From a virus: a DNA stretch of 44,235 nt. Made by a program: the position numbers and the translations under genes. The DNA is taken from positions 1-44,235 of IMG/VR virus record IMGVR_UViG_3300042540_000967; one strand, given 5' to 3'. Within the stretch, counting starts at the first letter, position 1. Every line of letters starts with the position of its first letter. The notes under the pieces were generated by a model that did no database searches, was not told the origin of the DNA, and saw only the letters and a program-made list of their open reading frames with translations. This document shows positions 1,837-37,244 of the stretch, in pieces.

Positions 1837-2291
1837 GTTGTTTTTGCTCGAGGAACGCGGAATGTCACGTCGATTTGGGCGAGGAAAATACGCCGCTCGG
1901 TCAGCGAGTCGCGGTCAAACTGCACGCTCATGCCGGCTGCGAAATACTGGGCATCCTCCGGCATTCCTGTGTAGGTCAGCGTCTCGGACCGGATGGCGTC
2001 GATAATTTCCTCGCAGAGCATGGTGAGGTTGTCTATGTCGCCGTTGGTGCCGTCGACCTGCTTCCCAACAACAACCATGATTTCGTGCGTAAACAAATCC
2101 ATGCCGCGGGCGCCTCGCTCCGTTTCCACCGGGCCGGGCACGACCGACACCTGGAGCTCTTTCAGTTCCGTGGCGTCGTAGTCTGGCACGTAGCGCCGGA
2201 CGGCCTGGACCGTGTCGTAGGGCTCCGAAAACGTGGCCGCCGCAAGTCCGGCCGCCATGGCGTCGGCAATCTGCACTGCAATGCTTGGCAT
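1833..2291 (-). CDS. Tail terminator-like protein
   Basis: A 152-residue protein beginning MPSIAVQIADAMAAGL and ending in a beta-rich segment with RIFLAQIDVTFRVPRA. A small alpha/beta protein with a C-terminal strand describing a measured quantity and an LTYTGMPEDAQ loop is typical of gpU-like tail terminators, which stop tail tube growth and dock the tail to the head. It sits between the sugar cassette and the tail completion gene; order terminator, completion, tube, chaperone, tape measure is normal. Recognition is by general shape and context, not by a catalytic motif. Confidence 0.6.
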   Translation of the reverse strand: MPSIAVQIADAMAAGLAAATFSEPYDTVQAVRRYVPDYDATELKELQVSVVPGPVETERGARGMDLFTHEIMVVVGKQVDGTNGDIDNLTMLCEEIIDAIRSETLTYTGMPEDAQYFAAGMSVQFDRDSLTERRIFLAQIDVTFRVPRAKTT

Positions 2292-2292
2292 T

Positions 2293-3348
2293 TCACGCGG
2301 CCTTGGGGCCGACCTCCGAGAGTTTGCGTTCTAGGTGGGCAAGGTTGCCGATGAGCCGAGAGTCGTCGGGGCGTCGGCGGACGGCCTCGCGGGCGTGCTT
2401 GAGCGCCTCGTCGTCCCTGGCCAGCCGCGAGGCTGCCACACAGGCCAAGTCGGCCGGTAGCTCGCCGTAGGCACGCGCGTCACTGGCGTGCGTTTGCGAC
2501 GACGCAGGGCAGGAGAGGGCTTGCCTGGCGTAGTAGAGGCAGGAAACCCAGTCCTCCATGCGATAGGCCATTTCGGCAAACGCTAGGAACGATTCCGGCT
2601 CCTGCGGCGATTCGAGCATGGCCGCGAACAAATGCCGCTTCGCCCGGTCCGGCTCGCGCTTGGCAAGCATTCGGAACGCGTAGGCCCGCTCGGTCGTCTG
2701 GCCGCCGGGCATCCGTAGGTAACGCTGCCACGCGTCAACGGTTTCCGCTTCGTCGGCGTAGTCCATTTCGCGGGCCAGATACCAGTGCATCCGAGCATCG
2801 TGCGGCGTTTCGCGAACGGCCTGCCGCAACAGCGTCAAATCGCTTTTGTGCTTTTTGCCAGGCTGCCGATGGTGGCGAATGCCGAATCGCTCGCTCATCG
2901 TGTGCGCGTCGTCTCCATCCCAGCACACGAGCCCCTCGTGCGTCGGGCCAGACCATCGGTAGCCCGCCCGCCGATGCACGCGGTCGCAGAGGAATCGCAC
3001 CTGCTCTGACCACTGATACCAATAGCGGAGCCGGCCAGTCTCGGCCGTCCAATCGGCTTCCAGGGCTTCCCGCCAGCCGGGGTCGAGCACTTCGTCCAGG
3101 TCGAGGCGAATGCACACGTCCACGTCCGCCGGCACGTGGTAGAGGGAAAGGTTGTGCGCGTCATCCCATCGCCACGGCACCGGGGCACCGGTGGCCACGG
3201 TGACGCCGGCGGCCGCTAGGAGCTCAACGGTGTTGTCGGTCGATCCCGTGTCGGTGACGACCCGCACGTCGGCCTCACGGCACGACGCTTCCCACGCCGG
3301 CACGTTGGCGGCTTCGTTCTTCGCGAGAGCGTATATGGCCACCTTCAT
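2293..3348 (-). CDS. Family 2-like glycosyltransferase
   Basis: A 351-residue protein. The start at 3348 overlaps the upstream methyltransferase stop as ATGA. The N-terminus MKVAIYALAKNEAANV, the segment VVTDTGSTDNTVELL and the DVCIRLDLDEVLDPGW block form a GT-A nucleotide-sugar fold, with the LDLDE acid cluster in the DxD (metal/UDP-sugar) position. The C-terminal half (from about residue 200) is helical and TPR-like. It probably transfers a sugar to a glycan or protein. It is the last gene of a three-gene, translationally coupled sugar cassette lodged between fibre and tail genes. The acceptor cannot be told; virion protein, host surface glycan or DNA are all open. Confidence 0.8.
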   Translation of the reverse strand: MKVAIYALAKNEAANVPAWEASCREADVRVVTDTGSTDNTVELLAAAGVTVATGAPVPWRWDDAHNLSLYHVPADVDVCIRLDLDEVLDPGWREALEADWTAETGRLRYWYQWSEQVRFLCDRVHRRAGYRWSGPTHEGLVCWDGDDAHTMSERFGIRHHRQPGKKHKSDLTLLRQAVRETPHDARMHWYLAREMDYADEAETVDAWQRYLRMPGGQTTERAYAFRMLAKREPDRAKRHLFAAMLESPQEPESFLAFAEMAYRMEDWVSCLYYARQALSCPASSQTHASDARAYGELPADLACVAASRLARDDEALKHAREAVRRRPDDSRLIGNLAHLERKLSEVGPKAA

Positions 3349-3896
3349 GTCAGCACCGCCACGCGCCGCAGGCCGTCGTGAATGAGTTGCACGTTCCGGT
3401 TGGCCTCTTTCGCAAACTGATCGACGGCCCGCATTACATCGGGGTTGCAACAGTCGTCGGCCAAGATGGCCCGGCAGTGGGCCACCAACCGCAGGTCGGC
3501 CAAGGCTCCCTCGTAACTGTGGTCGCCATCCACGTGGGCAAAGCAGGCCCTCGGCAGCGACCGGACGTGGTGCGAGTTGACGACCACCAAATCGGCCTCA
3601 ATGTCGTGCCGGTCAATCAGATGCTTGGCGTGGGCGAGGCACTCAAGGCTGTCGTCGTCCATCGCGCCGTCGAGGCAGAGGAATGATGCCCGCGGGGCCA
3701 CGGAATTGAACGCCAGCATCGAATAGCCGCACCGCGTCCCAATCTCAATGATCCGCCGCGGCTTGTACCGCTCGCAGATAATCGCCTTCATGGCGTAGTG
3801 CGAAATCACCTTGGAATCGCAGAAAAACCAGTCGTTTTCCCGCCAGTTGGATTCCAACAGCGATTTCACTTTGTCGTAGACGCTGGCTGCAATCAC
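3345..3896 (-). CDS. Class I SAM-dependent methyltransferase (Methyltransf_24-like)
   Basis: A 183-residue protein read from a GTG at 3896 that overlaps the upstream stop as GTGA. RRIIEIGTRCGYSMLAFN is the glycine-rich SAM-binding motif I, FLCLDGAMDDD is the motif II acid region, and FAHVDGDHSYEGALADL is the strongly diagnostic HxDGDHxYExxxxDL block of the Methyltransf_24 family, often found in glycan-modifying clusters. The most likely role is O-methylation of a sugar. It lies between the GH130-like and glycosyltransferase genes with stop/start overlaps on both sides, so the three are probably made in fixed ratio. Confidence 0.82.
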   Translation of the reverse strand: MIAASVYDKVKSLLESNWRENDWFFCDSKVISHYAMKAIICERYKPRRIIEIGTRCGYSMLAFNSVAPRASFLCLDGAMDDDSLECLAHAKHLIDRHDIEADLVVVNSHHVRSLPRACFAHVDGDHSYEGALADLRLVAHCRAILADDCCNPDVMRAVDQFAKEANRNVQLIHDGLRRVAVLT

Positions 3897-4957
3897 GCTA
3901 CAGGCTCCAAGAGAGGCATTACGTCGGTGAGCCGCAATTCCACCAGCCACGCCTCGCAGTCGCGGACGCCAAACGACACGACAAGCTGGCCGGGCGTGCG
4001 GGCAAGGCCGGCCGCAAACTCAATCGACCGGGCCTCGCGAAATACAAACGGCCGGCTCACCCCCGAAATACTCCAGTCCTCGGAGTCAAACGCCACAAAC
4101 CGATGCTCGTACGTGCGGCGGCCGTCTTTGTCGTGGGCCACTTCGTGAATCACGGCCAGGTAGAGCCCACTGCCAATGTCCACGAGTTGCGAGCCGCCAC
4201 GGAACCCACGAGCAAGCGCCGGCGATTCGGCACCTAGTTCAATCGCCCACCGGCCTGCCTCTTGGGTTGCGGTGGCTACGCGACCCTGGACGTGGCAGGA
4301 GTAGAGCCACCGGCGTGAGCCGGTTACGGGCATCCAATTCTTTTCGTGGATGCCATCCGCGGTTTCGTAGACCTCCAGGCCGACGTACTGGCCGGCGTGC
4401 CGAGTGGCGGTGGCCGTCCCGATTCGACACGTGCCGTCCAGGCCCGCAAAGTCTCGCACGGTGGCGCTGGCGAGTATTTCGCTGCCGACGACGTTGAGCC
4501 GAACGTCCTCCAGCCCCTCGACCTGGTAGCCGCTCGACTGGTAGTCGCACGCCATTACCGTTGGGCGGCCCACGGGCGTCAAGTCGCGAGCGTAGTCGGT
4601 CAGAATGTTTTTGGTTTTGATCCGGCCGCCATCCTCGTCCGGCATGACGTACCGCCCGCCGAAAATCCGGTAATTGGAACTACGGACGTTGACCAGGAAT
4701 CCGCCGTCCAGGGCCACGACGGACGGGTTGAAAAGCGACCAGCCGGGGGCCGCCGGCTCCACGTCGATCCGCACGTAGTTGGTCGCCACGAGCTCGTCGA
4801 GCCGTTGCGCGTACCAAGTGCGGTTCCGCCTGGTGAGTATTTCGATACCGTCTGGCAGGTCGCGCATGGCCAGGAGGCGCTCACAGGCCCGGCGGCCGGC
4901 CTCGAGTTCGCCGGCGTAATACGCGTGGGCCGCGATGGCCGTTAGGTGGTCGATCAT
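3893..4957 (-). CDS. GH130-like five-bladed propeller protein (glycoside phosphorylase/glycosidase fold)
   Basis: A 354-residue protein. Residues 1-50 look like a short TPR-type helical segment. The rest carries the pattern of GH130-like propellers: FNPSVVALDGGFLVNVR, then GLEDVRL (the EDxR core motif), KNWMPV, RGGSQLV, YLAVIHEV and a late GVRDCEAWL. GH130 enzymes phosphorolyse or hydrolyse beta-mannosides; related propellers occur fused or next to glycosyltransferases, where they may bind rather than cut glycans. It is first in the coupled sugar cassette. The 132-bp gap upstream of it holds an inverted repeat. Substrate and activity are unknown. Confidence 0.7.
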   Translation of the reverse strand: MIDHLTAIAAHAYYAGELEAGRRACERLLAMRDLPDGIEILTRRNRTWYAQRLDELVATNYVRIDVEPAAPGWSLFNPSVVALDGGFLVNVRSSNYRIFGGRYVMPDEDGGRIKTKNILTDYARDLTPVGRPTVMACDYQSSGYQVEGLEDVRLNVVGSEILASATVRDFAGLDGTCRIGTATATRHAGQYVGLEVYETADGIHEKNWMPVTGSRRWLYSCHVQGRVATATQEAGRWAIELGAESPALARGFRGGSQLVDIGSGLYLAVIHEVAHDKDGRRTYEHRFVAFDSEDWSISGVSRPFVFREARSIEFAAGLARTPGQLVVSFGVRDCEAWLVELRLTDVMPLLEPVA

Positions 4958-8953: not shown

Positions 8954-10056
8954 GTCGACAAGTCTCCAACAAGGAGCCATGTGTTGCCGACGTACTGGAT
9001 GAGCGTGGCCGTTGAGTACTGTGCCCGCAATTTCTGGCCTGGGGTCGCGTTGATGGTGACGCCAGTCGCGCCGGTCACGGTCAACGCACCGGCGCCGAGC
9101 CTTGCGATGTCAACGTGAACGCCAGTGGCAAGAGCGACCGATGCGTTGGATGGCACCGTGAGAGAAACGCCGGTAGATGTGTTGATGGTCACGAGCTTCC
9201 CGGCGTCCGCAAGCGCGAGCGTGTAGGCCGCAGTTTGGGCGTTAATCGCCTGCGATTCGCCAAACGATCCGGCCGATCCAGTTGCACCAGTTGGGCCGCC
9301 AGACGGTCCAGTTGGTCCAGTTATTGACGATCCTTGTGAGCCTGTCGGTCCCGTAACGGTGCTCGCCGCGCCGGTTGGTCCGGTGATTGAATTTCCTTGC
9401 GCGCCGGTTGGACCTGTGACTGTGCTTGGCGCTCCTACGGGGCCTGTGCTTCCAGTCGGACCGGTCACTGTGCTTGCGGCGCCGGATGGCCCTGCGCTAC
9501 CAGTTGGGCCGACGCTTCCAGTCGGGCCGGTTACTGTGCTTGCGGCGCCTTGCGCGCCGGTTGGCCCGGTGATCGAAAGCCCCTGGATACCCTGCGGGCC
9601 CGTTGGTCCGGTGACAAGCGAATTCGCACCAGTCGGCCCAGTAATCTGCGGTCCAGTCGCGCCAGTCGCGCCGACGCTGCCAGTTGGTCCGGTTATAGAC
9701 AGACCCTGAGCGCCCTGCGAGCCAGTTGGCCCGGCAGGACCGCTTTGCAGTTGCAGTCCAGCGCCCCACGAACCGTTGGCCTTTGGCCCATAAAGGACTC
9801 CGGCACCGGTCGTCGTATCAACATAAAAGTCGCCACTGCGGCCAAGGCCGGCAGACGGAGCACCTGTGCCGCTGTAGATTTTTGCGCCGTCAACGCCGGC
9901 GGCACCCGTGGGCCCAGTGACTCCAGGCGATGCAGTCCAGGCCGTTCCGCTGTAGGTAAGTACGCTGCCGGTCGCTGGACCGGTCGCGACCACAGGCTGC
10001 CCCTGCAGTTGCGTCGCGTTACCGCTCGATGGTGAAGAAATCGTGAAGAACGGCAT
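8950..10056 (-). CDS. Long collagen-like tail fibre protein
   Basis: A 368-residue protein with the paralogous start [16 protein letters not shown] and the fibre stalk motif [22 protein letters not shown]. About residues 105-258 are GPTG repeats with VTGPTG, SITGPTG and STVTGPTG variants, the longest collagen-like tract here. The C-terminal 110 residues form a small beta domain ending [22 protein letters not shown]. The start overlaps the upstream stop as TAATG. Such repeats are prone to slippage and recombination, which allows host-range change. Confidence 0.8.
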
Positions 10057-10433
10057 TACGTATAGTGCTTTCCACCTACTTCAACCCACAGCCCGGCGTA
10101 GCGCGTGAAATACTTTCCTGTGGCTGTGTCGAGCCACGTAGACCCGGCCGACGCAACAGCAGGCGCGAGGTCGGCTTGGTAAATCTCGCCGGCGCCACGC
10201 GGCCCAGTTGGGCCAGTCACGGAGTCTCCGGCTTGGCCAGAAGCGCCCGTGGGGCCCGTTACGCCTGCCACGCCAGCCACGCCTGTCGGGCCAGTCGGTC
10301 CGGCCGCTGCAAAGAATGACGAGAGCGTTGCGAGCGTTGCCCGGCTGGTGGTCGTGCCGACGACGACGGGCACGAGGCTCGCGCCAGTCACGCCAGTCGC
10401 CAACGGCAATTCGCTGATTTTCTTTTGTGCCAT
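10056..10433 (-). CDS. Short collagen-like fibre-base protein
   Basis: A 125-residue protein beginning [18 protein letters not shown], the standard KISEL-type start of phage fibre connectors. A short GPTG tract (residues 47-82) precedes a [21 protein letters not shown] fibre motif. It lies first in the fibre cluster and may link the collagen fibres to the virion. Confidence 0.7.
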
Positions 10434-11379: not shown

Positions 11380-13251
11380 TCAGGCAGTCGCCATGCGGTA
11401 GCAGGCGTTCCGCTCGGCCTTGGCGACGCCGAAATCGAAGTACCCCCTGACCTGGATGCCCAACTGGCTGAAATCCACGTCGGCCTGCTCGATGGTGGGC
11501 AGCCGGTTTCCGTTGAGGAAGGCCACTTCCATCCCAGCCAAGTCGCCGGGGTTTGCACAGAGCCACCAGGTCGAAGCGCTCGTGAGGTACGAGCTCGACA
11601 CGACCTGGTAGCGACCGGCCAGCACGTTCGTGCTCGGCGCGGCCCCGCTGGTGCCGTGAATGAGGGCCGAGCCCATCAGTTCAGCGGCAGCCACTTCGAG
11701 CTCCGGCGGAACCAGCAGCAGCGCCGGAGCGATGCCGAGCGGGTTGCCGTCGGGGTCCTTGAGCTTCCGGTAGGAAGTCACCGCGGTCTTGAGCGACGAG
11801 AGGGCCAAGGCGTTGCCGCCGGCGGCCGATTCCTTCGCGTAGAACGTGGCGTTGTTGTTCTGGAATTCCGTCCAGAAAACCGAATTGAGCTTGAGAGCCG
11901 CACCGCGTCCGAGCCGGGTCGGTACGACGGTCAGGGCACCCAAGTCATCGTTGATGATGTCCTCGCGGCGGATCGACGAGAGCCGGCCGTAGGTCTTCGC
12001 TTGGATCGTCCGAGTCTCGTCGGACGCGTCCGCGCTCTTGAGCTCGCCACCGGGGGCGACCTCCTCGAACTCAAACCCGCCGTTGAGCCGCACGCCCGTG
12101 ACGGCCTTGAAGTCGCTCACGGAGCGAATCGAGGCAATCCGGTCCCATGTCGACTCGACCGCGGTGAAGCCGGCGAGCAGGAACTTGCCGTACGTCGCGC
12201 TCACGACGTTCGCGATGGAATGCGTCGCGAACGCGGTGGCGAGGATCGTGCGGATGTTGCCGGTCGTCACCTTGGCCGGACCGTCGTAGCCGTTCTCGCG
12301 AGCGGCCTTCACGAGCACTTCGCCGAGCGAAGTCGTGCGCGACCGGTGAGCGGCCTCGAGCGTCTTCGCGTCGTAGTGACGCTCGGGATTGGGCAGGCCA
12401 CCGGCGAGCGCCAGGCTCGCCTCGACGACCGCGGGGCCGTCGACCTTCTCCACCACATGCACGGCCGGGGCGGCCGGCCGGGCGGACCGGACCGTCTCAA
12501 GGAGCTCGGCACGGATCAACTCGCGAATCTCGCTCACGTTGGGGCTCTCCTTTGCCGGCACGGCCGGCACTTCCTTCGCTTCCACGGCGACGCTCGCCGT
12601 GGCTTCCACCTTGGCAGCCGTGACCGGCTCCTCGGCGGGCGTCTTGGTGGCCTCGTCAGCCATAGAAACGTCCTCACTCGCCTCCGCGGCGATAGCGGCC
12701 GATGTAGCGGCATCGGCACCAAACAAAACGATTGACACCTCGCGGAGCGAGGATGCCCGAACGACAGACAGCGGCCCGGTGAACTCGCGACCGTTGACGG
12801 CCGCCATTTCGCCGGGGGCAATGTTTTCAATGCGGCTCGTGTCGGCGCCGATGGAAGCCTGGAACCGCAAACCCTTCTTGGCAAGCGAAATCACACGCTC
12901 TGCCACGGGCCCCTCGCCGATGAGCGAGCCGGCCACGACAAGCTGATGGCCGTCGCTCGAAATACTCGCCGACTGGCCGAGCACGCTATCGAGGCTGGCG
13001 TCGTGGCCCCACAGGATGGGGATGGACTGGTTGCTCGTGTCCATGCCGGCCAGGTCGACGACGAGAGGGTTGCGGCTCCACGCTTGCCGGATTGCCCGGC
13101 CGGTGTAGGCGACCAGTTCGAACGTCGGGGTAGAGCCGGACTCCGCGGCGGCCTGGACCGAAAACTCGGCCTCCATTGCAAGCACGCGGGGCGGCTCGCT
13201 GGCCTCCACGCGGCTGGCTGTTTGGGCATTCCATTTCCGGTGATTCTTCAT
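11380..13251 (-). CDS. Prohead protease / major capsid protein fusion
   Basis: A 623-residue fusion. Residues 40-200 form a U35/HK97-type prohead protease: SIPILWGHDASLDSVLG carries the catalytic His, with later RASSLREVSIVLFGAD holding the Ser-bearing strand. Residues 200-285 are an Ala/Glu/Lys/Val-rich linker that can serve as scaffold. Residues 285-623 are the capsid protein, with VSDFKAVTGVRLNG, GRLSSIRREDIINDDL and a C-terminal YFDFGVAKAERNACYRMA, as in Mu/HK97-like shells. The protease would release the shell by cutting near the linker. It overlaps the portal stop as ATGA. Such fusions are known but not common. Confidence 0.88.
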   Translation of the reverse strand: MKNHRKWNAQTASRVEASEPPRVLAMEAEFSVQAAAESGSTPTFELVAYTGRAIRQAWSRNPLVVDLAGMDTSNQSIPILWGHDASLDSVLGQSASISSDGHQLVVAGSLIGEGPVAERVISLAKKGLRFQASIGADTSRIENIAPGEMAAVNGREFTGPLSVVRASSLREVSIVLFGADAATSAAIAAEASEDVSMADEATKTPAEEPVTAAKVEATASVAVEAKEVPAVPAKESPNVSEIRELIRAELLETVRSARPAAPAVHVVEKVDGPAVVEASLALAGGLPNPERHYDAKTLEAAHRSRTTSLGEVLVKAARENGYDGPAKVTTGNIRTILATAFATHSIANVVSATYGKFLLAGFTAVESTWDRIASIRSVSDFKAVTGVRLNGGFEFEEVAPGGELKSADASDETRTIQAKTYGRLSSIRREDIINDDLGALTVVPTRLGRGAALKLNSVFWTEFQNNNATFYAKESAAGGNALALSSLKTAVTSYRKLKDPDGNPLGIAPALLLVPPELEVAAAELMGSALIHGTSGAAPSTNVLAGRYQVVSSSYLTSASTWWLCANPGDLAGMEVAFLNGNRLPTIEQADVDFSQLGIQVRGYFDFGVAKAERNACYRMATA

Positions 13252-26068: not shown

Positions 26069-26070
26069 CC

Positions 26071-26095
26071 CCCCAACCCGGAGCCCCAACCCATG
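26071..26095 (+). repeat. Repeated leader with SD and ATG, copy 1
   Basis: A 25-base leader (CCCCAACCC followed by GGAGCCCCAACCCATG) that is identical at 26330-26354. Shorter exact copies of GGAGCCCCAACCCATG end at 26626 and 28540. The complement has four G-tracts spaced by 2, 4 and 2 bases, a classical G-quadruplex pattern on the template strand. Confidence 0.85.
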
Positions 26096-26329
26096 GCCGA
26101 AATTTTGCCGATGCCCAACTCGACGACAATCCACGTAGTGCGCGACCTGCCAGGCGCCAACGGCCTCCCATGGTGGCAGATTGTCGCCCGATGGCCCGAT
26201 GCCCACGTGGGCACGTATACGCTCGCCACCGACGACGACGGCCAACCAGCAATCGACGTGGCCACGTGGCGAGCCATGGCCGCCGAACTACTTGCCAGGC
26301 ATCCGAATTGCTTTTTCGCTTACCTGTAA
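26093..26329 (+). CDS. Small hypothetical protein of the array
   Basis: A 78-residue protein read from the ATG of the repeated leader (SD GGAG at 11 bases). Segments PWWQIVARWPDAHVGTYTLA and WRAMAAELLARHPNCFFAYL suggest a small alpha/beta fold. No family is recognised. Its stop directly abuts the next leader copy. Confidence 0.6.
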   Translation: MAEILPMPNSTTIHVVRDLPGANGLPWWQIVARWPDAHVGTYTLATDDDGQPAIDVATWRAMAAELLARHPNCFFAYL

Positions 26330-26354
26330 CCCCAACCCGGAGCCCCAACCCATG
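26330..26354 (+). repeat. Repeated leader, copy 2
   Basis: Identical over 25 bases to copy 1 at 26071-26095, including ribosome site and ATG. It starts at the base after the previous stop codon, so gene and leader together form a unit that looks duplicated or exchanged as a cassette. Confidence 0.85.
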
Positions 26355-26594
26355 ACGATTGCCCAATTTTTCCGCCTGGCCGACATGATCCACAACCAAC
26401 CCGCCAACGTGCTGCGCATTGCCGAAAGCATGGCCGCGGGCGACAAGCAGACAGCGACGACACTCGCCGGCGGACGCTTTACGGACGACTGGTGGGCGGC
26501 CGAAGCAATCGTCGTCCGCCTGGCCGATCATGGGCTCGAAATGCCCAAGCCAACCCGTACGGCCAGCCAACCCGCCAACCTGTTTTCTAACTGA
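26352..26594 (+). CDS. Small hypothetical protein of the array
   Basis: An 80-residue protein starting in leader copy 2. MTIAQFFRLADMIHNQPANV and RFTDDWWAAEAIVVRLADHG form helices; the product ends QPANLFSN. No family is recognised. The ready translation signal and place in the array support a real gene. Confidence 0.6.
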   Translation: MTIAQFFRLADMIHNQPANVLRIAESMAAGDKQTATTLAGGRFTDDWWAAEAIVVRLADHGLEMPKPTRTASQPANLFSN

Positions 26595-26610
26595 GCCCCA
26601 ACCCAAACCA

Positions 26611-26626
26611 GGAGCCCCAACCCATG
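26611..26626 (+). repeat. Repeated leader, copy 3
   Basis: Exact GGAGCCCCAACCCATG. Upstream CCCCAACCCAAACC is related to, but longer than, that of copies 1 and 2. Confidence 0.8.
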
Positions 26627-26839
26627 CCCAACGCGTTTCCCCTCTATCGAATCGTCAAAGTGTCGGACCCGCGCAGCCGCGGTGCCTGCTACTGGTTCGA
26701 GATTGAAGCGACCGAGGCCGACGGCACGCGCCACTACTTGGCCACGTGCGACGACCGCCGCGAGGCCCGCGAGCTCGTCGCGGCCATGCAGGCCGAAAAC
26801 GCTCGACGCGTTGCCGCTGCCAACCCAAAAAATTTCTAG
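26624..26839 (+). CDS. Small hypothetical protein of the array
   Basis: A 71-residue protein: FPLYRIVKVSDPRSRGACYW, a beta sheet, then a helix (DRREARELVAAMQAENARRV). The short beta-then-helix layout (YEI..., ...HYLATCDDRREA) is seen in small phage proteins of unknown role. It is the last gene before promoter 3. Confidence 0.6.
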   Translation: MPNAFPLYRIVKVSDPRSRGACYWFEIEATEADGTRHYLATCDDRREARELVAAMQAENARRVAAANPKNF

Positions 26840-26844
26840 CCCCC

Positions 26845-26873
26845 TTGTCCCGTTGTTGCCGATAGGATACTAT
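26845..26873 (+). promoter_or_regulatory. Shared-spacer promoter 3
   Basis: TTGTCC, a 17-bp spacer identical in its last 12 bases to those of promoters 1 and 2, and TACTAT. It would drive the 333-residue gene at 26939 with a leader of about 60 bases. Confidence 0.75.
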
Positions 26874-26938
26874 CAACCAACCCGAAACCGCCGCGGGCAA
26901 TCGGCGGGCAGCCAGTAGAGAAACCGGAGCCCGATAAC

Positions 26939-27940
26939 ATGAGCGTTTCCCACCTTGAATCACTGAGCCTCGGCGCCTTTGCGGCGGCCGCCGTCCGCCA
27001 CCAATTCGCGACGCTTGCCGAGGTCGTCGAGTTGCTGGCCACCGTGGCCACCGCCAACGCGTCCGCCCTGGCCGACCAATACGGCGACAACGTCGAGCCC
27101 GCCGACGCGGACGACATCGAGGCCGTTGCCCTCGACGTGCTCGCCGGCCGCGTTGACGCCGGCACCTGGCCGCCGCTCGCCTATAACTGCGTCACCAACG
27201 CCGGCCGCGACTACCTGCCCGCCGACGTGGCCGACCGGCTCCGTTTCATCGAACAGGAAACCCGCCGCCACACTGACCGCGAGGAGCGCCAGCAGGCCCG
27301 CGCCGAGGCCAACGCGGCAGCGTATGACGACGTGCCCCGCCTGGCCACCATGACGGCCGACGAGCTCCGGCAGGCCATGGCCGACGCCGGCGCCGACCGC
27401 GTGATCGTGGCCCGGTTCCGCGTTGACGAGTCTGAATCCCAAAGCGACTACTACAACGGCCGGACCGCCCGCGAGGTCGTCATCGGGCTCGGCCGCGGCC
27501 GCCGCGAGTCGTTCGCCCAACTCAGGAAGGCCGCGGCCGGCTTCAAGCCGACCGCCGACTATGGGCCGGGGCTCGGCCGCTGGTTTGCCCATGTCGTGCT
27601 CGACACGGATTGCATGGGCAACGGCTTCCACCACTACGCCGGCGAGCGTTCCGGCTGGCACCGCGACGACGCCGCCGGCCCGCTGCCAACCACGGCGGCC
27701 GCCGAGGCCCACGCCGCCGCCCACCCGCTGCAGCCGTTGCACGTCAACGGCAAGACGGTGCCCGTATCGTGGCGCATCACCGAGGAGCGCATTGAGCACC
27801 GCGAAACCTACAGCATGGGCGGCGGCAACTATCTCGGCGACGCCCGCTATAGCGGCTGGACCGTCTACAGCACCACCTACGCCACCGGCGCCGTTGAGGT
27901 GCATTCGCTCGCCGCATTCGGCACGAAGGCCCGCAAGTAG
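26939..27940 (+). CDS. Largest unrecognised protein of the array
   Basis: A 333-residue protein with GGAGCC ahead of ATG 26939. Residues 1-130 are helical and Ala-rich; from about 145 the sequence changes to VIVARFRVDESESQSDYYNG, REVVIGLGRGRRESFAQLRK, GRWFAHVVLDTDCMGNGFHH and a beta-rich end with WTVYSTTYATGAVEVHSLAA. A helical front with a beta-sandwich-like back half is visible, but I recognise no family or catalytic motif. It stands under promoter 3 and is the most substantial unknown here. An antisense reading frame of 411 codons over it looks like a GC-rich shadow. Confidence 0.7.
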   Translation: MSVSHLESLSLGAFAAAAVRHQFATLAEVVELLATVATANASALADQYGDNVEPADADDIEAVALDVLAGRVDAGTWPPLAYNCVTNAGRDYLPADVADRLRFIEQETRRHTDREERQQARAEANAAAYDDVPRLATMTADELRQAMADAGADRVIVARFRVDESESQSDYYNGRTAREVVIGLGRGRRESFAQLRKAAAGFKPTADYGPGLGRWFAHVVLDTDCMGNGFHHYAGERSGWHRDDAAGPLPTTAAAEAHAAAHPLQPLHVNGKTVPVSWRITEERIEHRETYSMGGGNYLGDARYSGWTVYSTTYATGAVEVHSLAAFGTKARK

Positions 27941-28035
27941 CCGACCCGCCCGCACCGCCACGGCGCCCGCGGCCGTGGCGAGACGGGCCGGCCGACTACC
28001 GACCGACCACCAACCCCAACCAGGAGCCCGAAACA

Positions 28036-28431
28036 ATGAACGCCTACGATACTCTGAGCCCCGCCGACCTCGACGCCATCGTCCGCCAAATTGCCGAGGG
28101 TGGCGCCCCCGTCGATAGTTGGGCCACCCAGGCGGCCGGCGGCCATATGCGGCGCGACGACGCCCGTGAATACTTCTGCCACCTGGCGAGCTCATGGAGC
28201 GGCAACGCCGGCCCTCGACGCGTTGCCCGCGTCACCGTCTACCGCGACGCCCCTGGCCGCTGGACGATTGGAGACGTGGACGTGTTCACGCACGCCGCCG
28301 ACTCCGCAACCCGCGACGACGACGCCGCCCGTGAAATTCTCGCCGCCGTCGAGGCCGACCCGCGGCGATTTTACCGCGTAGACGACCACGGCTACCGGCT
28401 CGCAGCCGCGGAGGCCGCCGGCACGCTTTGA
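28036..28431 (+). CDS. Hypothetical protein of the array
   Basis: A 131-residue protein with leader GGAGCCCGAAACAATG, a variant of the repeated leader. LSPADLDAIVRQIAEGG, a DDAREYFCHLASSW helix and VARVTVYRDAPGRWTIGDVD with a C-terminal helix and YRVDDHGYRLAAAE are visible. No known family. Confidence 0.6.
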   Translation: MNAYDTLSPADLDAIVRQIAEGGAPVDSWATQAAGGHMRRDDAREYFCHLASSWSGNAGPRRVARVTVYRDAPGRWTIGDVDVFTHAADSATRDDDAAREILAAVEADPRRFYRVDDHGYRLAAAEAAGTL

Positions 28432-28524
28432 CACCCGGCCGCCCCGGCCACCGGCCCCCGCGGGCCGGGCACCGGGCCGGCCTGGCACAACGCCAGCCCG
28501 ACAACCCATAGCCCCAACCAGTAC

Positions 28525-28540
28525 GGAGCCCCAACCCATG
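28525..28540 (+). repeat. Repeated leader, copy 4
   Basis: Exact GGAGCCCCAACCCATG, preceded by ACAACCCATAGCC, a second repeated element that is also seen near 28840, 29205 and 29241. The 106-bp gap before this gene holds only these C/A-rich repeats. Confidence 0.8.
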
Positions 28541-28819
28541 ACCGTTACCAAAACCTACCCGCACGGCGTCAAGCTCACGACCACGACGCACGGCTACGAC
28601 TTGCACCGCGGCGGACGCCTGGCCGGCCGCGTCAGCATTCGCCGCAGTTTCGACGGCCGCCAATGGACCGCCGACATTTTCGCCCACGACGGCTACACCT
28701 GGACGCTCGACCGCCGCACGGTGCCGGGCACCATGCCCGCCACGCGTGCGGCCATCGACGCCTACGCCGCCGCATATGACCAATTCGCCTACGTGGCTTC
28801 CGGCGAATGCCACCGATGA
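28538..28819 (+). CDS. Small hypothetical protein of the array
   Basis: A 93-residue protein beginning MTVTKTYPHGVKLTTTTHGY, with a strongly beta-rich first half and a helix (PATRAAIDAYAAAYDQFAYV) at the end. No family recognised. It starts within leader copy 4. Confidence 0.6.
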   Translation: MTVTKTYPHGVKLTTTTHGYDLHRGGRLAGRVSIRRSFDGRQWTADIFAHDGYTWTLDRRTVPGTMPATRAAIDAYAAAYDQFAYVASGECHR

Positions 28820-28865
28820 ACCACGGCCAACCCATACCCACAACCCATAGCAGGAGCCACAGCCC

Positions 28866-29204
28866 ATGACCGATACGAAACGAATCGACCACGCCGCTTA
28901 CGCCAAAGACTGCCGCCGCCGATCTGAGGCCGAACTACTTTTCATCGTGGCCGATTGCCGGGCGACGCTCGCCGCCTGGCATGACTGCCCCAACGCCGGC
29001 TACTACACCGACGAAATTCATTACGCCACCGCCGAGCTCGAGCGACGCCGCCGCGGCGGCCGGCGGGCCAAGGGGCAGCCAGGCCCCACCATGGCCGAGC
29101 TCGTGGCGGCGGCCATCCCCGGCGGCGACGCCGCCGAGCTAGCCGGGCTCACGCTTGACGAGCTCGCCGATGAACTGCAGTACGCGGCCGACTACCAGTT
29201 TTAG
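28866..29204 (+). CDS. Conserved hypothetical phage protein
   Basis: A 112-residue protein with leader GGAGCCACAGCCCATG. CRRRSEAELLFIVADCRATL and NAGYYTDEIHYATAELERRR match the general sequence of a small conserved phage/plasmid protein with (S)EAEL...I..DA...NAGYYADEI.Y...EL.RR, of unknown role. The rest is an Ala-rich extension. It is the best-conserved member of the array. Confidence 0.65.
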   Translation: MTDTKRIDHAAYAKDCRRRSEAELLFIVADCRATLAAWHDCPNAGYYTDEIHYATAELERRRRGGRRAKGQPGPTMAELVAAAIPGGDAAELAGLTLDELADELQYAADYQF

Positions 29205-29265
29205 ACAACCCATAGCCGGACAACCCATGGCCCAGCAATTGACAACCCATAGCCGACTGGAAACA
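29205..29265 (+). repeat. C/A-rich tandem leader repeats (ACAACCCATAGCC)
   Basis: Elements ACAACCCATAGCC or ACAACCCATGGCC occur three times in 61 bases between two genes. One includes an in-frame ATG (29227) that could extend the next protein, but no ribosome site precedes it. Confidence 0.65.
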
Positions 29266-29493
29266 ATGTCGGACATGGCACCAAAAATTGACCCCGACAA
29301 ATACCTGACGATTGGCAACGCTGCCAAGCTGGCCAACGTGTCACGCTTCTGGCTTCGTTCGCTCGTGAAGGGCGGCCACGTGGCCGGTATTCAAATTGAC
29401 GGCCAATGGTTCGCCTTGCGGTCGTCCGTGGAATCGTTCGCCAAGTCTTCCGGCAACGTGGGCCGGCCACGCGGCGGAAAACACGGCAACTAG
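29266..29493 (+). CDS. AlpA-like HTH protein, second copy in the array
   Basis: A 75-residue protein from ATG 29266 with a GGAAACA-type leader. LTIGNAAKLANVSRFWLRSL and VKGGHVAGIQIDGQWFALRS SV form an AlpA/MerR-type HTH with the same IDGQW-style wing, ending SGNVGRPRGGKHGN, similar to the GRPRLSPF end at 26047. The two array HTH proteins are probably paralogues. Confidence 0.75.
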   Translation: MSDMAPKIDPDKYLTIGNAAKLANVSRFWLRSLVKGGHVAGIQIDGQWFALRSSVESFAKSSGNVGRPRGGKHGN

Positions 29494-29525
29494 CCAACCC
29501 CAACCCGTACGAATTCGTTCACGAC

Positions 29526-29554
29526 TTGCTTCTGACTTGCCGATAGGATAGAAA
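29526..29554 (+). promoter_or_regulatory. Shared-spacer promoter 4
   Basis: TTGCTT, a 17-bp spacer ending TTGCCGATAGGA, and TAGAAA. It would drive the last block of the array (29604-30819), including the PrimPol gene. Confidence 0.65.
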
Positions 29555-29603
29555 TAGACAACCAACAGCCGGACAACCCGGCCCAACCCAGGAGAGATAC
29601 GCC

Positions 29604-29915
29604 ATGCCAAACACGAAAACACTTGCCGACATGGAGCTCGAGCAGGCCGCAGCGGTCGAAGAATATCCCGGCGGCCACCGGACGCTTTACGACTTCGTCC
29701 GGCTCGCCGAACGCTGGAACACGCTCGGCAAGAGGGCCAAGGCCGCGGCGCTCGCCATGAATCGCGGATCGCTCGACACGGCAGCCGACTTGCTCGGCCC
29801 GCGCGACGAGTCCCAGGCCAGCCCGGCATATGACGAACTGTTTGAGATTCTTTTCGACATTGAGGAGGCCGGCTTTCGCGTTGACAACGGCGCCGTCGGC
29901 CGGCTCGACGACTAG
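29604..29915 (+). CDS. Hypothetical protein of the array
   Basis: A 103-residue protein with AGGAGAG before ATG 29604. It is mainly helical (TLYDFVRLAERWNTLGKRAK, SPAYDELFEILFDIEEAGFR) and acidic at its end. No family recognised. First gene under promoter 4. Confidence 0.6.
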   Translation: MPNTKTLADMELEQAAAVEEYPGGHRTLYDFVRLAERWNTLGKRAKAAALAMNRGSLDTAADLLGPRDESQASPAYDELFEILFDIEEAGFRVDNGAVGRLDD

Positions 29916-29948
29916 CCACAACCAACACCCAACCCAGGAACCCAACCT

Positions 29949-30209
29949 ATGCACGCCGCCAGTTTTGAAACCGATCTTGCCAATGTGCTCGACGCCGATC
30001 CGCTCACTCAACCCATCGTTGACGCCATCGCCGCCGGCCACGACCTGCCCGACGAGTTTCTGATTCTCGACACGTACCACGACATTGGCGAGCCCGTGGC
30101 GGCCCACCGCTGCGAGCGCATCCGTTCCGAGGTATGCGACGTGCTCAATTTTTTTGGCCTGGCCATGCCCGCCACCCACACGATGCTCGACAAGGGGGCC
30201 AACCCATGA
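29949..30209 (+). CDS. Small hypothetical protein of the array
   Basis: An 86-residue protein with CAGGAACCC before ATG 29949. VVDAIAAGH-like helices and DEFLILDTYHDIGEPVAAHR with a final DVLNFFGLAMPATHTML segment are visible. It overlaps the PrimPol gene as ATGA, so it may act with it. No family is recognised. Confidence 0.6.
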   Translation: MHAASFETDLANVLDADPLTQPIVDAIAAGHDLPDEFLILDTYHDIGEPVAAHRCERIRSEVCDVLNFFGLAMPATHTMLDKGANP

Positions 30210-30703
30210 ACGACCTGGCCGCACTTGCCGCCATCGGCGGACGCTTCGTCCGCCTGGCCCGCCGGGAAAAGCGCCCGCTCGGCGCCGCCTGGCAAACTCG
30301 CTCGACGGACAACCTGGACGACGTGGCCGCCTGGCTTCGCTCGGGCTCAAACGTGGGGCTCCTGCTCGGGGCCGCGTCCGGCCTGGTCGACATTGAATTC
30401 GACACGCCCGACGGGCCCGCCGAACTCGAGCGGCTCGGGCTCACTGCCCCAACCCCGACGTGGCGCTCGGCTCGTGGCGAGCACCGCCTCTATTGGTGGG
30501 AGCCCGGCTTGCCGGCCATGGCCTGCTGCCACGTGGGGGCGCTCGAGGTCCGCATTGGCGGCCGGGCTGCGCAATCGGTGCTCCCGCCGTCCCGCCACCC
30601 GACCGGGACAACCTATACATGGACAACCAGCCCGGCCGATTGCCCCGTGGCCGCGCTCCCAACCAGGCTCATGGAGGAGCTATGCGGACAACCAACAGGC
30701 TAG
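30206..30703 (+). CDS. PrimPol domain protein (bifunctional primase/polymerase N-terminal type)
   Basis: A 165-residue protein equal to a single Prim-Pol (PF09250-like) catalytic domain. VRLARREKRPLGAAWQTRST binds the start, LVDIEFDTPDG carries the DxE/D metal ligands, HRLYWWEPG and EVRIGGRAAQSVLPPSRHPT (with the conserved Pro-Pro-Ser-x-His) follow. Helicase and C-terminal domains are missing, so it probably works with a host or other phage helicase. It is coupled to the gene before it and is the only clear replication enzyme on the plus strand. Confidence 0.85.
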   Translation: MNDLAALAAIGGRFVRLARREKRPLGAAWQTRSTDNLDDVAAWLRSGSNVGLLLGAASGLVDIEFDTPDGPAELERLGLTAPTPTWRSARGEHRLYWWEPGLPAMACCHVGALEVRIGGRAAQSVLPPSRHPTGTTYTWTTSPADCPVAALPTRLMEELCGQPTG

Positions 30704-30819
30704 ATGCCACGATCCGGGCGCTCGTGCTCGTGCGGCTCGGCCAGGAGCTCGGCAGCGAATCCTCGCTTGCGCGGGCAGTCTACGACTTGGGCAACCTACT
30801 GTTGGCTTTTCTTCGGTAG
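30682..30819 (+). CDS. Very small protein, 45 residues
   Basis: The ATG at 30682 lies 22 bases inside the end of the PrimPol gene with GGAGGAGC directly before it. The product is MRTTNRLDATIRALVLVRLG and a helical, leucine-rich remainder (LGSESSLARAVYDLGNLL). It ends convergently, overlapping the stop of the minus-strand gene at 30796. The fine ribosome site supports it; function is unknown. Confidence 0.55.
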   Translation: MRTTNRLDATIRALVLVRLGQELGSESSLARAVYDLGNLLLAFLR

Positions 30820-31185
30820 GTCGCCGGCCGCAATCTGCCGAGACAACCCACGCAGTATCACCCGCCACGAGGCGTCGCAGAACCACAACTCCACGACCGC
30901 TTGCGAAATAGACGCCACGAAACCGGCCAGAAAGAGATTCCACAGCGGCCCAACGCCGTGCCGGGCTTCGTAATGCTCCCGCACTTGAGCCCGAACCAAT
31001 GCCATGGCGTGCCGGACGGCCACGTGATTCTTTCCGCCGGCTCGCTGGATAGCGTCAAGGTGATTGTGCGGCCAATGGCGGACGACCAGGCCAACGAGCT
31101 CGGCCGTTCGCTCCCTGCCGGCCATGCGGGCACGCTGGCCAATGAGGCCGGTTACGTGCGCATTCAGCCAGTCGAGCGCATCCAT
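30796..31185 (-). CDS. Small membrane-associated protein of the lysis-like block
   Basis: A 129-residue protein from ATG 31185, overlapping the upstream stop as TAATG. A basic front half and a hydrophobic stretch (GPLWNLFLAGFVASISQAVV) with a basic end give one probable membrane segment. It is the last gene of the minus chain. A holin-like or spanin-like role is possible, but one segment alone does not show it. Confidence 0.5.
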   Translation of the reverse strand: MDALDWLNAHVTGLIGQRARMAGRERTAELVGLVVRHWPHNHLDAIQRAGGKNHVAVRHAMALVRAQVREHYEARHGVGPLWNLFLAGFVASISQAVVELWFCDASWRVILRGLSRQIAAGDLPKKSQQ

Positions 31186-31484
31186 TACTTGGGCGGGCAC
31201 TTGCCGTCAAGGCAGGGCAGGGCCGGCCGCTTGATGCACCGGGCACACTTGCACGTGCAAACTTGCTCGATCCTGCCATCGGGCTTCCAGACGCCGTTTT
31301 TGCACGTGCCGCCACACACGCAGTCCGCCGGCGTTGGGGCCGGGGCCGGGCCAGGCTCGGCCGGCGCGAGGCTGGCCCGTGCCGCCGTCACCGCCGCCGC
31401 CGCCTGGGCGTGCTCGAGCGGCGCAGCCTGGGGCACGGCCGCCACCGCCACCAGCCACCCAACCAGCCATTCGTAGAACGTCAT
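31185..31484 (-). CDS. Small exported Cys-rich protein
   Basis: A 99-residue protein starting at ATG 31484. MTFYEWLVGWLVAVAAVPQA is a signal or membrane segment, a Pro/Ala-rich linker follows, and the last 50 residues hold eight or so cysteines (CVCGGTCKNGVWKPDG, VCTCKCARCIK), resembling a small disulphide-rich or metal-binding knot. It is coupled to genes on both sides (TGATG and TAATG) within the membrane-protein block. Confidence 0.6.
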   Translation of the reverse strand: MTFYEWLVGWLVAVAAVPQAAPLEHAQAAAAVTAARASLAPAEPGPAPAPTPADCVCGGTCKNGVWKPDGRIEQVCTCKCARCIKRPALPCLDGKCPPK

Positions 31485-31756
31485 CACCACCCCCGCCCGT
31501 GATTGACCGTGGCAAACCCATCGCGGCCAACGCCGCCGTGATCGTGGGCCATGCTCGGCTCGCTCGCCGAGGCCGGCGGCCCTTCGGCAAATACCATGAC
31601 CCACAACGCCGTGCGGGCCACCTTGGCCAAGAACGACAGCACCGGCCGGCCGTTGTTGGGCACAATCGGGCTTGGCTTGTCCGGCGATGAGAACAGCCAC
31701 CAGCCAGCCGCCAGGCCAACCACCAGCACGAACAGAGTATTTCGGTCAATTTTCAT
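31484..31756 (-). CDS. Small membrane protein
   Basis: A 90-residue protein from ATG 31756: MKIDRNTLFVLVVGLAAGWW is an N-terminal membrane anchor, and SFLAKVARTALWVMVFAEGP is a second hydrophobic helix. The gene starts inside the end of the peptidase gene (11-base overlap). One GAAATACTC motif copy lies over codons 4-8. Small two-helix membrane proteins beside a peptidase suit holin-type functions. Confidence 0.55.
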   Translation of the reverse strand: MKIDRNTLFVLVVGLAAGWWLFSSPDKPSPIVPNNGRPVLSFLAKVARTALWVMVFAEGPPASASEPSMAHDHGGVGRDGFATVNHGRGW

Positions 31757-32903
31757 GCGGCCCCCACATCTTGAACACGTCCGAAACCAGCCGCGCCGGA
31801 TTGGCCAGTCGCCCGGCATTCGGCGCCGGCTGCAGCCATTCGCCGTGGTGAATGTCACGCCATCCAAACCCACTGACGCCACCGATGGCCCACGTATCGC
31901 CGCGGATCATGCGCTCGACAACGGACCGACGCGCGAGAAATGCACCGTCCGGCAAATCGTCCGGGAGCTTCGCCCCTTCATACCGGCACCACCGCGGCCC
32001 CCACGAATTGAGCACCACCACCAGGTCGTCGGGGTTGTTGTTTTTTTTGTGCAAAATCCCACAAATCATCATTTGGTGGTGCCACGTGCCAGACGCTTCG
32101 GCAATGCCGTTGCGGGCGACGCTCTCGAACCCTTGCGAACTGGCGACCGTGCAGGGATAGCCCGCCTCCAAAGCTGCGGCCAACTCGTCCCACGTCTCGA
32201 CTTTCACGACGTGCTTACAAGGATGCTTTTTGGCCAGCTTGTCGAGCCGGTAGTTATCACCCTGCCCGCCGGCCCCGTAGGCGCCCTCGTGCTTTTCACG
32301 CGTCGCGTCGTATGTCGTGTAGTCGAAAATGCCGGGGTAGGGCTTGCGATAAATCACGCCCCAATCACGCAGCCACCGGGCGGCGGCCGCCCCGAACGAT
32401 CCATCGGACCACCCGCCAACAGGCGACGAGCCATCAAACCCGTCGGGGTTGCTTCGTCGCGCCTCGACGCGCGAACCTCCGTAGAGGGGCTCGGTCGCGG
32501 GCATGAGCGGCGGCTCGGCCAACTCGCCGATTTTCCATGACACACTTTCCGCGCAGAAAACTCCGTGCATGGCACCCCAGGCAACACAACTTCCATTCAG
32601 TTGCCTGCCCACCACGAACTCGGTGCCGTAGCGGGCCCGGTGGGCCTCAAACATGGCACGGTAAAGGAGCGTATCGACCCCCTTGGCCTTCTCCATGCAC
32701 TCGGCACCGGCCTGCGCAAACCGCGGCTGGTCGAGCTCGGCCATGAACCGCTCGACGGCTTCCGGGTCTGGCGTATAGCCAAACCGCGGCGCGAGGGAAT
32801 CCTCGAGCGTCACCGCAGACCGGAGAAATACAAGCAGGGCCAGCACGGCTAACGCCAGGCCGACGGCCACCCGGTAAAAACGCACGTCATCAGCGAAGCG
32901 CAT
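31746..32903 (-). CDS. Papain-fold (C1-like) cysteine peptidase with membrane anchor
   Basis: A 385-residue protein. Residues 8-28 (YRVAVGLALAVLALLVFLRS) are a signal anchor. GRQLNGSCVAWGAMHGVFC carries the oxyanion Gln and catalytic Cys; WHHQMMICGILHKKNN holds the His in the place of papain HAVxxVGY; VVVLNSWGPRWCRYEG is the Asn-Ser-Trp-Gly block. The triad Cys/His/Asn is therefore complete. It sits among membrane proteins at the end of the late chain, where endolysins lie. It could cut envelope or host proteins or process virion proteins. An A-run (A AAA AAC) lies between His and Asn. Confidence 0.8.
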   Translation of the reverse strand: MRFADDVRFYRVAVGLALAVLALLVFLRSAVTLEDSLAPRFGYTPDPEAVERFMAELDQPRFAQAGAECMEKAKGVDTLLYRAMFEAHRARYGTEFVVGRQLNGSCVAWGAMHGVFCAESVSWKIGELAEPPLMPATEPLYGGSRVEARRSNPDGFDGSSPVGGWSDGSFGAAAARWLRDWGVIYRKPYPGIFDYTTYDATREKHEGAYGAGGQGDNYRLDKLAKKHPCKHVVKVETWDELAAALEAGYPCTVASSQGFESVARNGIAEASGTWHHQMMICGILHKKNNNPDDLVVVLNSWGPRWCRYEGAKLPDDLPDGAFLARRSVVERMIRGDTWAIGGVSGFGWRDIHHGEWLQPAPNAGRLANPARLVSDVFKMWGPHEN

Positions 32904-33946: not shown

Positions 33947-33948
33947 TG

Positions 33949-35484: not shown

Positions 35485-36690
35485 TTATGCGGTGCGGGCG
35501 GTCGGCCGGGGGCCGGCCACGCACATGCCGACGAGGCCGCCGTCGTGGTGATAGAAAAACGTCTCCATGGCCCGACGGGCGCCAATAAACCCCATGGACG
35601 CGTGCCAATCGTCGGCCGGCCCGAGACTGGGGGCGACGCGCACGAGCACCGAATCAACCGTCTCGATGGGCAGCGACCACTCGGCCGCCTGGCTATGAAA
35701 ATGGCCGGTATGGATTTCGCGGTAGGACGCTTTGCCCCACAGGTCGGCAGCCTCGAGCGCCATGAGTTGCGGCAGCCGACGCTTGGCCTTGTGGCCGTGG
35801 GCAATGCCCAACAGGTTGCCGCCGTGGTGCAAATACTGGCGGCCGGTAAACCGCTGCGAAATACTCACCCGGCGGTCGGACCGGAACCGCTCGACCATTA
35901 TTTTTTGAAACGCGGCGCTGAGCGTCTCGTCGTGATTGCCGTGGACAATATGCACGTCCGTGGGGCAGGTGGTCGCGGACCGCTCGACGAGCCCCATCAG
36001 ACAGTCGGCCCCAACGCCAATCATCTTCTGGAGCCTGCCGTCCATGCTGCCGGCCAGCGGCGTGCCCGAGGTCGTCGTGCCGCCAACCGTGTCGAAATGA
36101 AATAGGTCGCCAAGCATCACGATGGAGCGGCGGGCCGGGGCGTAGATGGCGTCGCCGGTGGCCAGGAGCTCGCGGCCGGCGTCACTGACCAGTTTCTCCG
36201 CGATGGCCAAGTCGTAGTCGGCGTCACCCGTGCCTTGCTTCCAGCAGTATTTAGCGAAATGAACATCGGCCACAACCAACACTTGCCACGTGCCAGGCTC
36301 GCGACGCTTGTGCGGTCGCACTGGTGCCTTGCGAACAGTCTTGGCGGCCGCCGCAATCATGGCCGCCACTGCTTCCGCCACGCCCGGCCCGGCCTTTGGC
36401 TTGAGCCGCACCCACACGCGGAACAAATCCGTCACGGTGGCCTGGCCGTCGCTATCGCTTGTGGCCACTTGCCACGTCGTCGCCTCTGACTGCGCGACTT
36501 CGTACTTGGACATATCGGCGTCGATATGCCGCAGCAAATCCTCGACAGTCCGAATCGTGGACGAAACGCTGTTGGCCTCGAGCTCGCCGCCGCTCGTGCG
36601 TTGCGTCACCTGCTCGGCATCACGCGGCGGCCGGCCGGCGGCCTTGCCGGCCTTTTCCGCGATGGCGTGGGCTATTTTCTTTTGAGCCAA
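35485..36690 (-). CDS. Calcineurin-like metallophosphoesterase
   Basis: A 401-residue protein; the start appears to be TTG 36690, overlapping the previous gene. The catalytic half shows all five metallophosphoesterase blocks: VVADVHFAKYCW, MLGDLFHFDTV, HIVHGNHDETL, GIAHGHKAKRRLP and IHTGHFHSQAAE. It may be a DNA or nucleotide phosphoesterase. The first 130 residues are helical and unknown. It stands between virion and lysis genes with other apparently early functions. Confidence 0.85.
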   Translation of the reverse strand: MAQKKIAHAIAEKAGKAAGRPPRDAEQVTQRTSGGELEANSVSSTIRTVEDLLRHIDADMSKYEVAQSEATTWQVATSDSDGQATVTDLFRVWVRLKPKAGPGVAEAVAAMIAAAAKTVRKAPVRPHKRREPGTWQVLVVADVHFAKYCWKQGTGDADYDLAIAEKLVSDAGRELLATGDAIYAPARRSIVMLGDLFHFDTVGGTTTSGTPLAGSMDGRLQKMIGVGADCLMGLVERSATTCPTDVHIVHGNHDETLSAAFQKIMVERFRSDRRVSISQRFTGRQYLHHGGNLLGIAHGHKAKRRLPQLMALEAADLWGKASYREIHTGHFHSQAAEWSLPIETVDSVLVRVAPSLGPADDWHASMGFIGARRAMETFFYHHDGGLVGMCVAGPRPTARTA

Positions 36691-36944
36691 TTCTCGATCC
36701 CCTGGCGGCCGATGGTCGCGATTTTCCGCTCGGCCAACTCGGCCGACAGCATCGTGGCAAACCGACTCAGTGGCATTTCGCCGAACTGGCTGGCAAACCC
36801 GCCGCGCACGTACGCGTCTTTGGCTTCCTGCAATTCCGCCTGCACGCCTGGCGGGAGCTTGTCAAACCAAATCATGTTTCGCGGCGGCTTGGCGGCCGCT
36901 CGCACGCGGAGCGAATCCAGAATGCCGGCAGACTTTTTGCCCAT
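36672..36944 (-). CDS. Small helical hypothetical protein
   Basis: A 90-residue basic protein. MIWFDKLPPGVQAELQEAKD then YVRGGFASQFGEMPLSRFAT and a C-terminal GRQGIENWLKRK look like a compact DNA-binding-type helical fold. No named family. It overlaps the phosphoesterase gene. Confidence 0.55.
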   Translation of the reverse strand: MGKKSAGILDSLRVRAAAKPPRNMIWFDKLPPGVQAELQEAKDAYVRGGFASQFGEMPLSRFATMLSAELAERKIATIGRQGIENWLKRK

Positions 36945-37244
36945 TCAATCCTCCTCGTCGTGGTCGTCAGCCTGCCGGAATCCTTCCCGGTGCAGGATCG
37001 CGGCTTGGGTACTCGCCAATTCTTCGACAACGTCTTCCGATAAGTCTGGAAAACGGGCGTGGAGTAATTCGTGGAGCAGCGCGTCCATAAGCTGCAGCCC
37101 TACTAGGTTTGCGGCTATGCGAATCTGCCGCTTGCTCCAATCACAATCGCCATCCCTGTCCCGCGGATACCGGACGTGCGAAATACTCCACCGCCGGTCG
37201 CCCACGTACACGCGAAGCGTTTTGGTTGCGTGCCGACTTGCCAC
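36945..37244 (-). CDS. HExxH zinc metallopeptidase-like small protein
   Basis: A 99-residue protein from GTG 37244 with AGGAGCG in front. A beta front (RRWSISHVRYPRDRD) leads to RQIRIAANLVGLQLMDALLH and LHELLHARFPDLSEDVVEEL: HELLH is the HExxH zinc site with the downstream acid EDVVEE. Size and order resemble SprT/IrrE-like minimal metallopeptidases of phages. Substrate is unknown. Confidence 0.75.
   Translation of the reverse strand: MASRHATKTLRVYVGDRRWSISHVRYPRDRDGDCDWSKRQIRIAANLVGLQLMDALLHELLHARFPDLSEDVVEELASTQAAILHREGFRQADDHDEED

Follow-up and report, generated by a model that had tools for sequence, protein, structure and literature searches.

Why does one short sequence recur throughout the genome of an uncultured phage, in genes and in several reading frames, and which protein reads it? 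We addressed this question in an IMG/VR phage record of 44,235 bp and 63% GC (analysed over its full length and hereafter called the window), which encodes a lambda-type portal, a gpA-type terminase and a tyrosine integrase. AAATACT occurs 21 times in the window (13 copies on the + strand, 8 on the −) and GAAATACT 17 times (10 and 7), exactly as counted in an earlier, sequence-only reading. Base composition predicts 1.08 and 0.34 copies, which upholds the over-representation claimed there. GAAATACT ranks first among all 8-mers of the window by over-representation, GAAATACTC and CGAAATACT occur 12 and 14 times, and a reversed control pattern has 0 occurrences. With the core properly defined as (C)GAAATAC(T)(C), three more copies of CGAAATAC that lack the final T are included, giving 20 sites in the window. 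The 17 longer copies and the features discussed with them are as follows (RepX is a working name):

1941–1948, + strand: GAAATACT site inside gene 1833–2291
4065–4072, + strand: GAAATACT site inside gene 3893–4957
4473–4480, − strand: GAAATACT site inside gene 3893–4957
4836–4843, − strand: GAAATACT site inside gene 3893–4957
10107–10114, + strand: GAAATACT site inside gene 10056–10433
12959–12966, + strand: GAAATACT site inside the capsid gene
16097–16104, − strand: GAAATACT site in terminase, kept in relatives
16844–16851, − strand: GAAATACT site in terminase, kept in relatives
17422–17429, + strand: GAAATACT site in terminase
17944–17951, + strand: GAAATACT site at a gene junction
20431–20438, + strand: GAAATACT site inside gene 20304–20549
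21296–21303, + strand: GAAATACT site directly past the stop of AAA gene 21308–22252
23948–24871, + strand: tyrosine integrase adjoining the array
25061–25180, no strand: control-region site array in the integrase–repX gap, two sites 88 bp apart in the window
25081–25088, − strand: array site 1
25169–25176, − strand: array site 2
25410–25438, + strand: repX promoter-like element TTGACC-17-TACAAT, including the repeated TTGTTGCCGATAGG element
25445–26047, + strand: RepX gene (200 aa), proposed cognate binder
26048–31735, + strand: remainder of the rightward repX operon, site-free, including a short HTH_17 gene and the Prim-Pol gene
31736–31743, − strand: site at the convergent-operon junction, directly past the stop of 31746–32903, kept in relatives
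35858–35865, + strand: GAAATACT site inside the phosphoesterase/exonuclease gene, kept in relatives
37180–37187, + strand: GAAATACT site between genes 35485–36690 and 37295–37915

Coding constraint does not account for this enrichment: 13 copies of GAAATACT lie in genes, compared with 1.10 ± 0.96 in a codon-preserving shuffle (5 at most in 1000 shuffles), and CGAAATAC tops the ranking in a synonymous codon shuffle of the window genes (13 versus 0.8). Coding sequences contain 13 of the 17 leftward sites of the window; nine sites in genes are opposed (1.0 in the shuffle) and four are co-oriented (0.4). The codons previously read through the motif (AGT ATT TCG, GAA ATA CTC or CTT, and TAT TTC or TTG) were correct. 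The frame given for five Ser-Ile-Ser places also stands, but the fifth place (25169) sits in an ORF extension that is in fact the integrase–repX intergenic region, and we count it as intergenic because repX most likely starts at 25445.

Sites occupy the same places in relatives that are only ~73% identical, bearing out the conservation between related phages that the sequence-only reading had proposed as a check. Between the window and phage G002 (72.6% identity where aligned), four of seven aligned sites are exact, compared with 8.6% of AT-rich control 8-mers, and in the reverse direction all four aligned sites are exact; local identity (roughly 60 bp on each side) predicts 0.83 of the seven and 0.46 of the four. 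Positional conservation is similar in a second clade, and between clades the site places turn over. Taken with the codon shuffle and the presence of sites on both strands and in several frames, this supports selection at the DNA level, one of the possibilities raised earlier. Among the functions then listed, a regulator site fits best, while a Chi-like, uptake or otherwise host-wide role seems less likely because the motif is sparse in genomes carrying distant relatives, related phages can be without it, and changes in its flanks parallel changes in one phage protein. The density of CGAAATACT is 1.4–8 per Mb in five such genomes, whose records are named planctomycete and which need not represent the host, versus ~316 per Mb in the window.

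The first 24 kb of the window had no close DNA counterpart in an annotated phage collection. Relatives of its terminase are viral contigs and, at about 32–48%, mostly planctomycete and Lentisphaerae MAGs, which points to a planctomycete-type host as likely. Relatives with an 84% identical terminase again have GAAATACT as their top 8-mer, those at about 72% terminase identity have ATCGAAATAC, and many further relatives show the motif at background level. The logo is CGAAATACTC for the window and G002–G004 and gCyATCGAAATACyC for G005, G009 and G012–G014.

Among 49 window proteins, RepX alone matches the distribution of the motif: all ten long phages with the motif encode it, and the four long phages without the motif do not; the co-occurrence was also examined on 50 records. 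Counter-cases are G012, which has eight copies of CGAAATAC and no RepX on its possibly incomplete contig, and the RepX homologues of L208–L210, which have no upstream array. In L209 and L210, CGTGGAAAC was considered as a switched motif and rejected, being instead a strand-specific gene leader. A LexA-like 84-aa protein (17958–18212, − strand), the XRE protein, the integrase, the AAA protein and the SSB-like protein were all rejected as binders because each either also occurs in phages without the motif or is lacking in some phages with it. The LexA-like protein has the DNA-binding domain of LexA but no peptidase domain. A second, short HTH_17 protein (29170–29493, + strand), paralogous to the DNA-binding domain of RepX, occurs in nearly all relatives. 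RepX was not found in 392 sampled genomes from the phylum of one planctomycete MAG, a weak search run without a positive control.

The mosaic structure of the window separates RepX from the genes that hold the sites. Its integrase is nearest that of G021 (70% identical), a phage without the motif, and its capsid and tail genes are nearest those of G037 (of the ATCGAAATAC type), while its RepX is nearest that of G002 (of the CGAAATACT type), and the window motif is of the G002 type: the AT prefix differs between window and G037 (p = 0.004) and not between window and G002 (p = 1). Motif flanks track RepX type and not the site-holding genes. Across 36 phages, the more two RepX proteins differ, the more their motifs tend to differ as well (Mantel r 0.52, p 2e-4), and the AT prefix is found in 182 of 238 sites where wing residue 168 of RepX is basic and otherwise in 17 of 84, both relationships being confounded with phylogeny; G050 (L249) is an exception to the covariation.

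Sites are concentrated upstream of repX and absent from its operon. Across 47 phages, we counted 106 sites in the 700 bp before repX (a density ~ten-fold that of the lytic operon), 0 in the 134 kb covering repX and 3 kb downstream, and about 2–4 sites per 10 kb beyond this stretch. Base composition predicts only ~1 site in repX and the 3 kb downstream, so this gap means that sites are not enriched there, and not that they are rarer than by chance. With the operon delimited by an estimate of coding strand, its rightward part contained 25 sites over 220 kb and the region beyond it 108 over 230 kb. The first downstream site is often no more than a few hundred bp from the switch between rightward and leftward coding; sites begin near this junction of convergent operons and then continue along the lytic operon, which is transcribed in the opposite direction. 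Between the integrase and repX, array sites in relatives are mostly spaced 32–33 bp apart, also 21–22 and 44 bp, or form inverted pairs 12 bp apart. Between 21304 and 25080 of the window, upstream of the leftward operon, there are no exact core sites, and no recognised leftward early promoter carries one.

Other elements of this region are distinct from the motif. An XRE-type regulator (23434–23679, − strand) with its own palindrome (AGTAGAAAACT...AGTTTTCTACT, at ~23370) is likely a classical switch, and a tRNA-Arg-like antisense sequence at ~23760–23840, missed by ARAGORN, is possibly an attachment-site remnant. All four copies of the element TTGTTGCCGATAGG(A/C)TA lie in the rightward operon (25421, 26051, 26856 and 29537, + strand), and every one precedes a gene start; 0.42 copies are expected (14-mer, 2 mismatches), and the element appears promoter-like. 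From 26059 to 28868 (+ strand), a repeated leader, CCCCAACCCGGAGCCCCAACCCATG, precedes rightward genes, with CACAACCA or CGAACGTGGAAAC versions in relatives. The repX operon ends in a stand-alone Prim-Pol domain (30134–30703, + strand), and this primase suggests that the operon may be early lytic rather than lysogenic.

Dispersed sites are mostly oriented head-on to lytic transcription (159:70 overall). Since the phages are related, such site counts overstate independence; ten representatives gave 75:33 (p 7e-5), and the window alone 13:5. Array sites are opposed to repX transcription by 96:11. G002–G004 are without head-on bias (5:9, 4:10 and 6:9), and their control region has inverted pairs. 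An initial estimate by coding score, which classified just 41 sites and looked unbiased, was superseded by orientation relative to repX.

The AF2 model of RepX (pLDDT 87.5) comprises a helical N-terminal domain (residues 1–127) and a C-terminal winged helix of the Xis/MerR type (139–191), together with an invariant GRPR tail and a C-terminal PF. The winged helix matches BldC (Z 6.4 over 53 residues, rmsd 2.5), Pukovnik Xis (Z 5.7) and lambda Xis (Z 4.6), with RacA also among the matches; the HTH_17 match is weak (18.7 bits, under the 27-bit cut-off). Modelled alone, the N-terminal domain reached pLDDT 95, and no solved structure stood out in comparison with it. A profile of 40 RepX sequences run against the PDB returned just two chance-level ribosomal matches and no L5/TipsytheTRex repressor chain, and fold searches list only Xis/MerR domains. 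The PF ending is common to RepX (26044) and the SSB-like protein (20583), as in the SSB C-terminal tip.

Our data suggest that the sites are probably dispersed operators of RepX, a phage-encoded silencer, acting as stoperator-like roadblocks on virion genes. We prefer this regulator-silencer reading because it accounts jointly for the co-occurrence, conservation, geography and orientation of the sites. Counting against it are the missing core site at any recognised leftward early promoter, the unbiased orientation in G002–G004, the intragenic position of most sites, the Prim-Pol in the repX operon, and the counter-cases G012 and L208–L210. Judging from its fold, the winged helix of RepX would recognise the core CGAAATAC through the major groove, its wing contacting the flank. 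At the clustered integrase–repX sites, several copies of RepX could bind helically phased direct repeats (21–22, 32–33 or 44 bp) or inverted pairs and so set expression of the control region. On single sites of the oppositely transcribed lytic operon, RepX may form a polar roadblock: RNA polymerase would mostly meet bound RepX head-on, shortening leaky or run-through transcription of the terminase, capsid, tail and downstream genes. Such a block might serve lysogeny or the timing of early infection, and the repX operon, without sites, would remain expressed.

The fold and gene neighbourhood of RepX could also belong to an excisionase or architectural factor for integration that acts mainly at the array (as attP arms), its dispersed sites being secondary and serving titration or looping. 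The Xis-like fold, PHROG excisionase matches, a mycobacteriophage 'excise' protein as best phage-database match of the DNA-binding domain, and the int–array–repX order kept in several phages all agree with such a role. Excision, however, needs no sites over tens of kb of structural genes, where the array motif extends with conserved positions and biased orientation, and the motif does not track the integrase, as G021 illustrates; we regard this account as rather unlikely. Partition, condensation or packaging sites bound by RepX, in the manner of MatP, Noc or RacA, would suit single dispersed sites on both strands and the structural match to RacA. This organising role would not lead one to expect the head-on bias or the lack of sites over repX and the following 3 kb, Pfam and PHROG scans of window proteins showed no ParA, and we consider it improbable.

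That RepX is instead a replication initiator, with the array an iteron origin by an AT tract and the dispersed sites titrating the initiator, seems decidedly improbable: it would explain an array with 21–22 or 32–33 bp spacing upstream of repX, the A/T tract near the repX promoter and the Prim-Pol in the same operon, but gives no reason for sites to spare the initiator's operon and oppose lytic transcription. Orientation bias relative to transcription would also be expected of an element working in mRNA (as AGUAUUUCG), for example in processing or translation control. About 30% of sites overall, and the majority of those in G002–G004, are reversed, inverted pairs keep a fixed spacing, and RepX, the protein linked to the motif, carries a winged helix for DNA binding, all of which make an mRNA element highly improbable.

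Dispersed silencing sites are already well described in one mycobacteriophage group. If the silencer reading of RepX is correct, these phages, whose uncultured host is probably a planctomycete, would use an unrelated-looking protein to the same end and so indicate that the strategy evolved more than once. We give about even chances to a second, independently evolved genome-wide phage silencing system, convergent with stoperators, based on an Xis/MerR-type protein, with roadblocks in virion-gene codons and the regulator's operon spared. Site drift with one wing residue would then lend itself readily to testing how immunity specificities shift in phages, and the 47 RepX-bearing loci would provide a natural mutant series.

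Several known systems resemble this one in part. Operators of P1 C1 are asymmetric and scattered over the phage genome singly and in pairs, as in the window. They differ in being located at promoters, and C1 is not known to be of the Xis type. Xis- and BldC-type proteins are small and single-domain, with a limited number of sites (BldC has 68 residues). Unlike them, RepX carries an extra domain of 127 aa, and its proposed sites extend over the entire lytic operon. It shares with excisionases and BldC-type winged helices its fold, a basic wing, expected direct-repeat binding and a gene beside an integrase (PMC5859096); the direct repeats bound by BldC are 9 bp long, and its basic wing residues lie in an AT-rich minor groove (PMC5859096).

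The closest parallels are with the Cluster A stoperators of L5, Bxb1 and TipsytheTRex (PMC9283540, PMC6550527), which are likewise short, asymmetric, dispersed sites tied to one phage DNA-binding protein. In both systems, orientation correlates with transcription (here 75:33, and 13:5 in the window, G002–G004 excepted), a site lies upstream of the regulator gene, and the motif drifts with the repressor between phages. Site numbers (17 GAAATACT and 20 core sites in the window, 11–19 CGAAATAC in long RepX-bearing relatives) are in keeping with the "more than twenty or so" given for stoperators. Cluster A systems also have an operator at an early lytic promoter, whereas here no exact core site lies upstream of the leftward operon (21304–25080), and their repressor halts elongation where it binds, as is predicted for RepX. 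Stoperators occupy short intergenic spaces, whereas the sites described here, of about 9–10 bp, are mostly intragenic, and one subclade has inverted pairs and no orientation bias. Because intergenic placement is a defining feature of stoperators, we do not class the RepX system among them. The proteins also differ in plan: the L5 repressor joins an N-terminal HTH to a stoperator domain, while RepX joins an unrelated-looking helical N-terminal domain to a C-terminal Xis/MerR winged helix.
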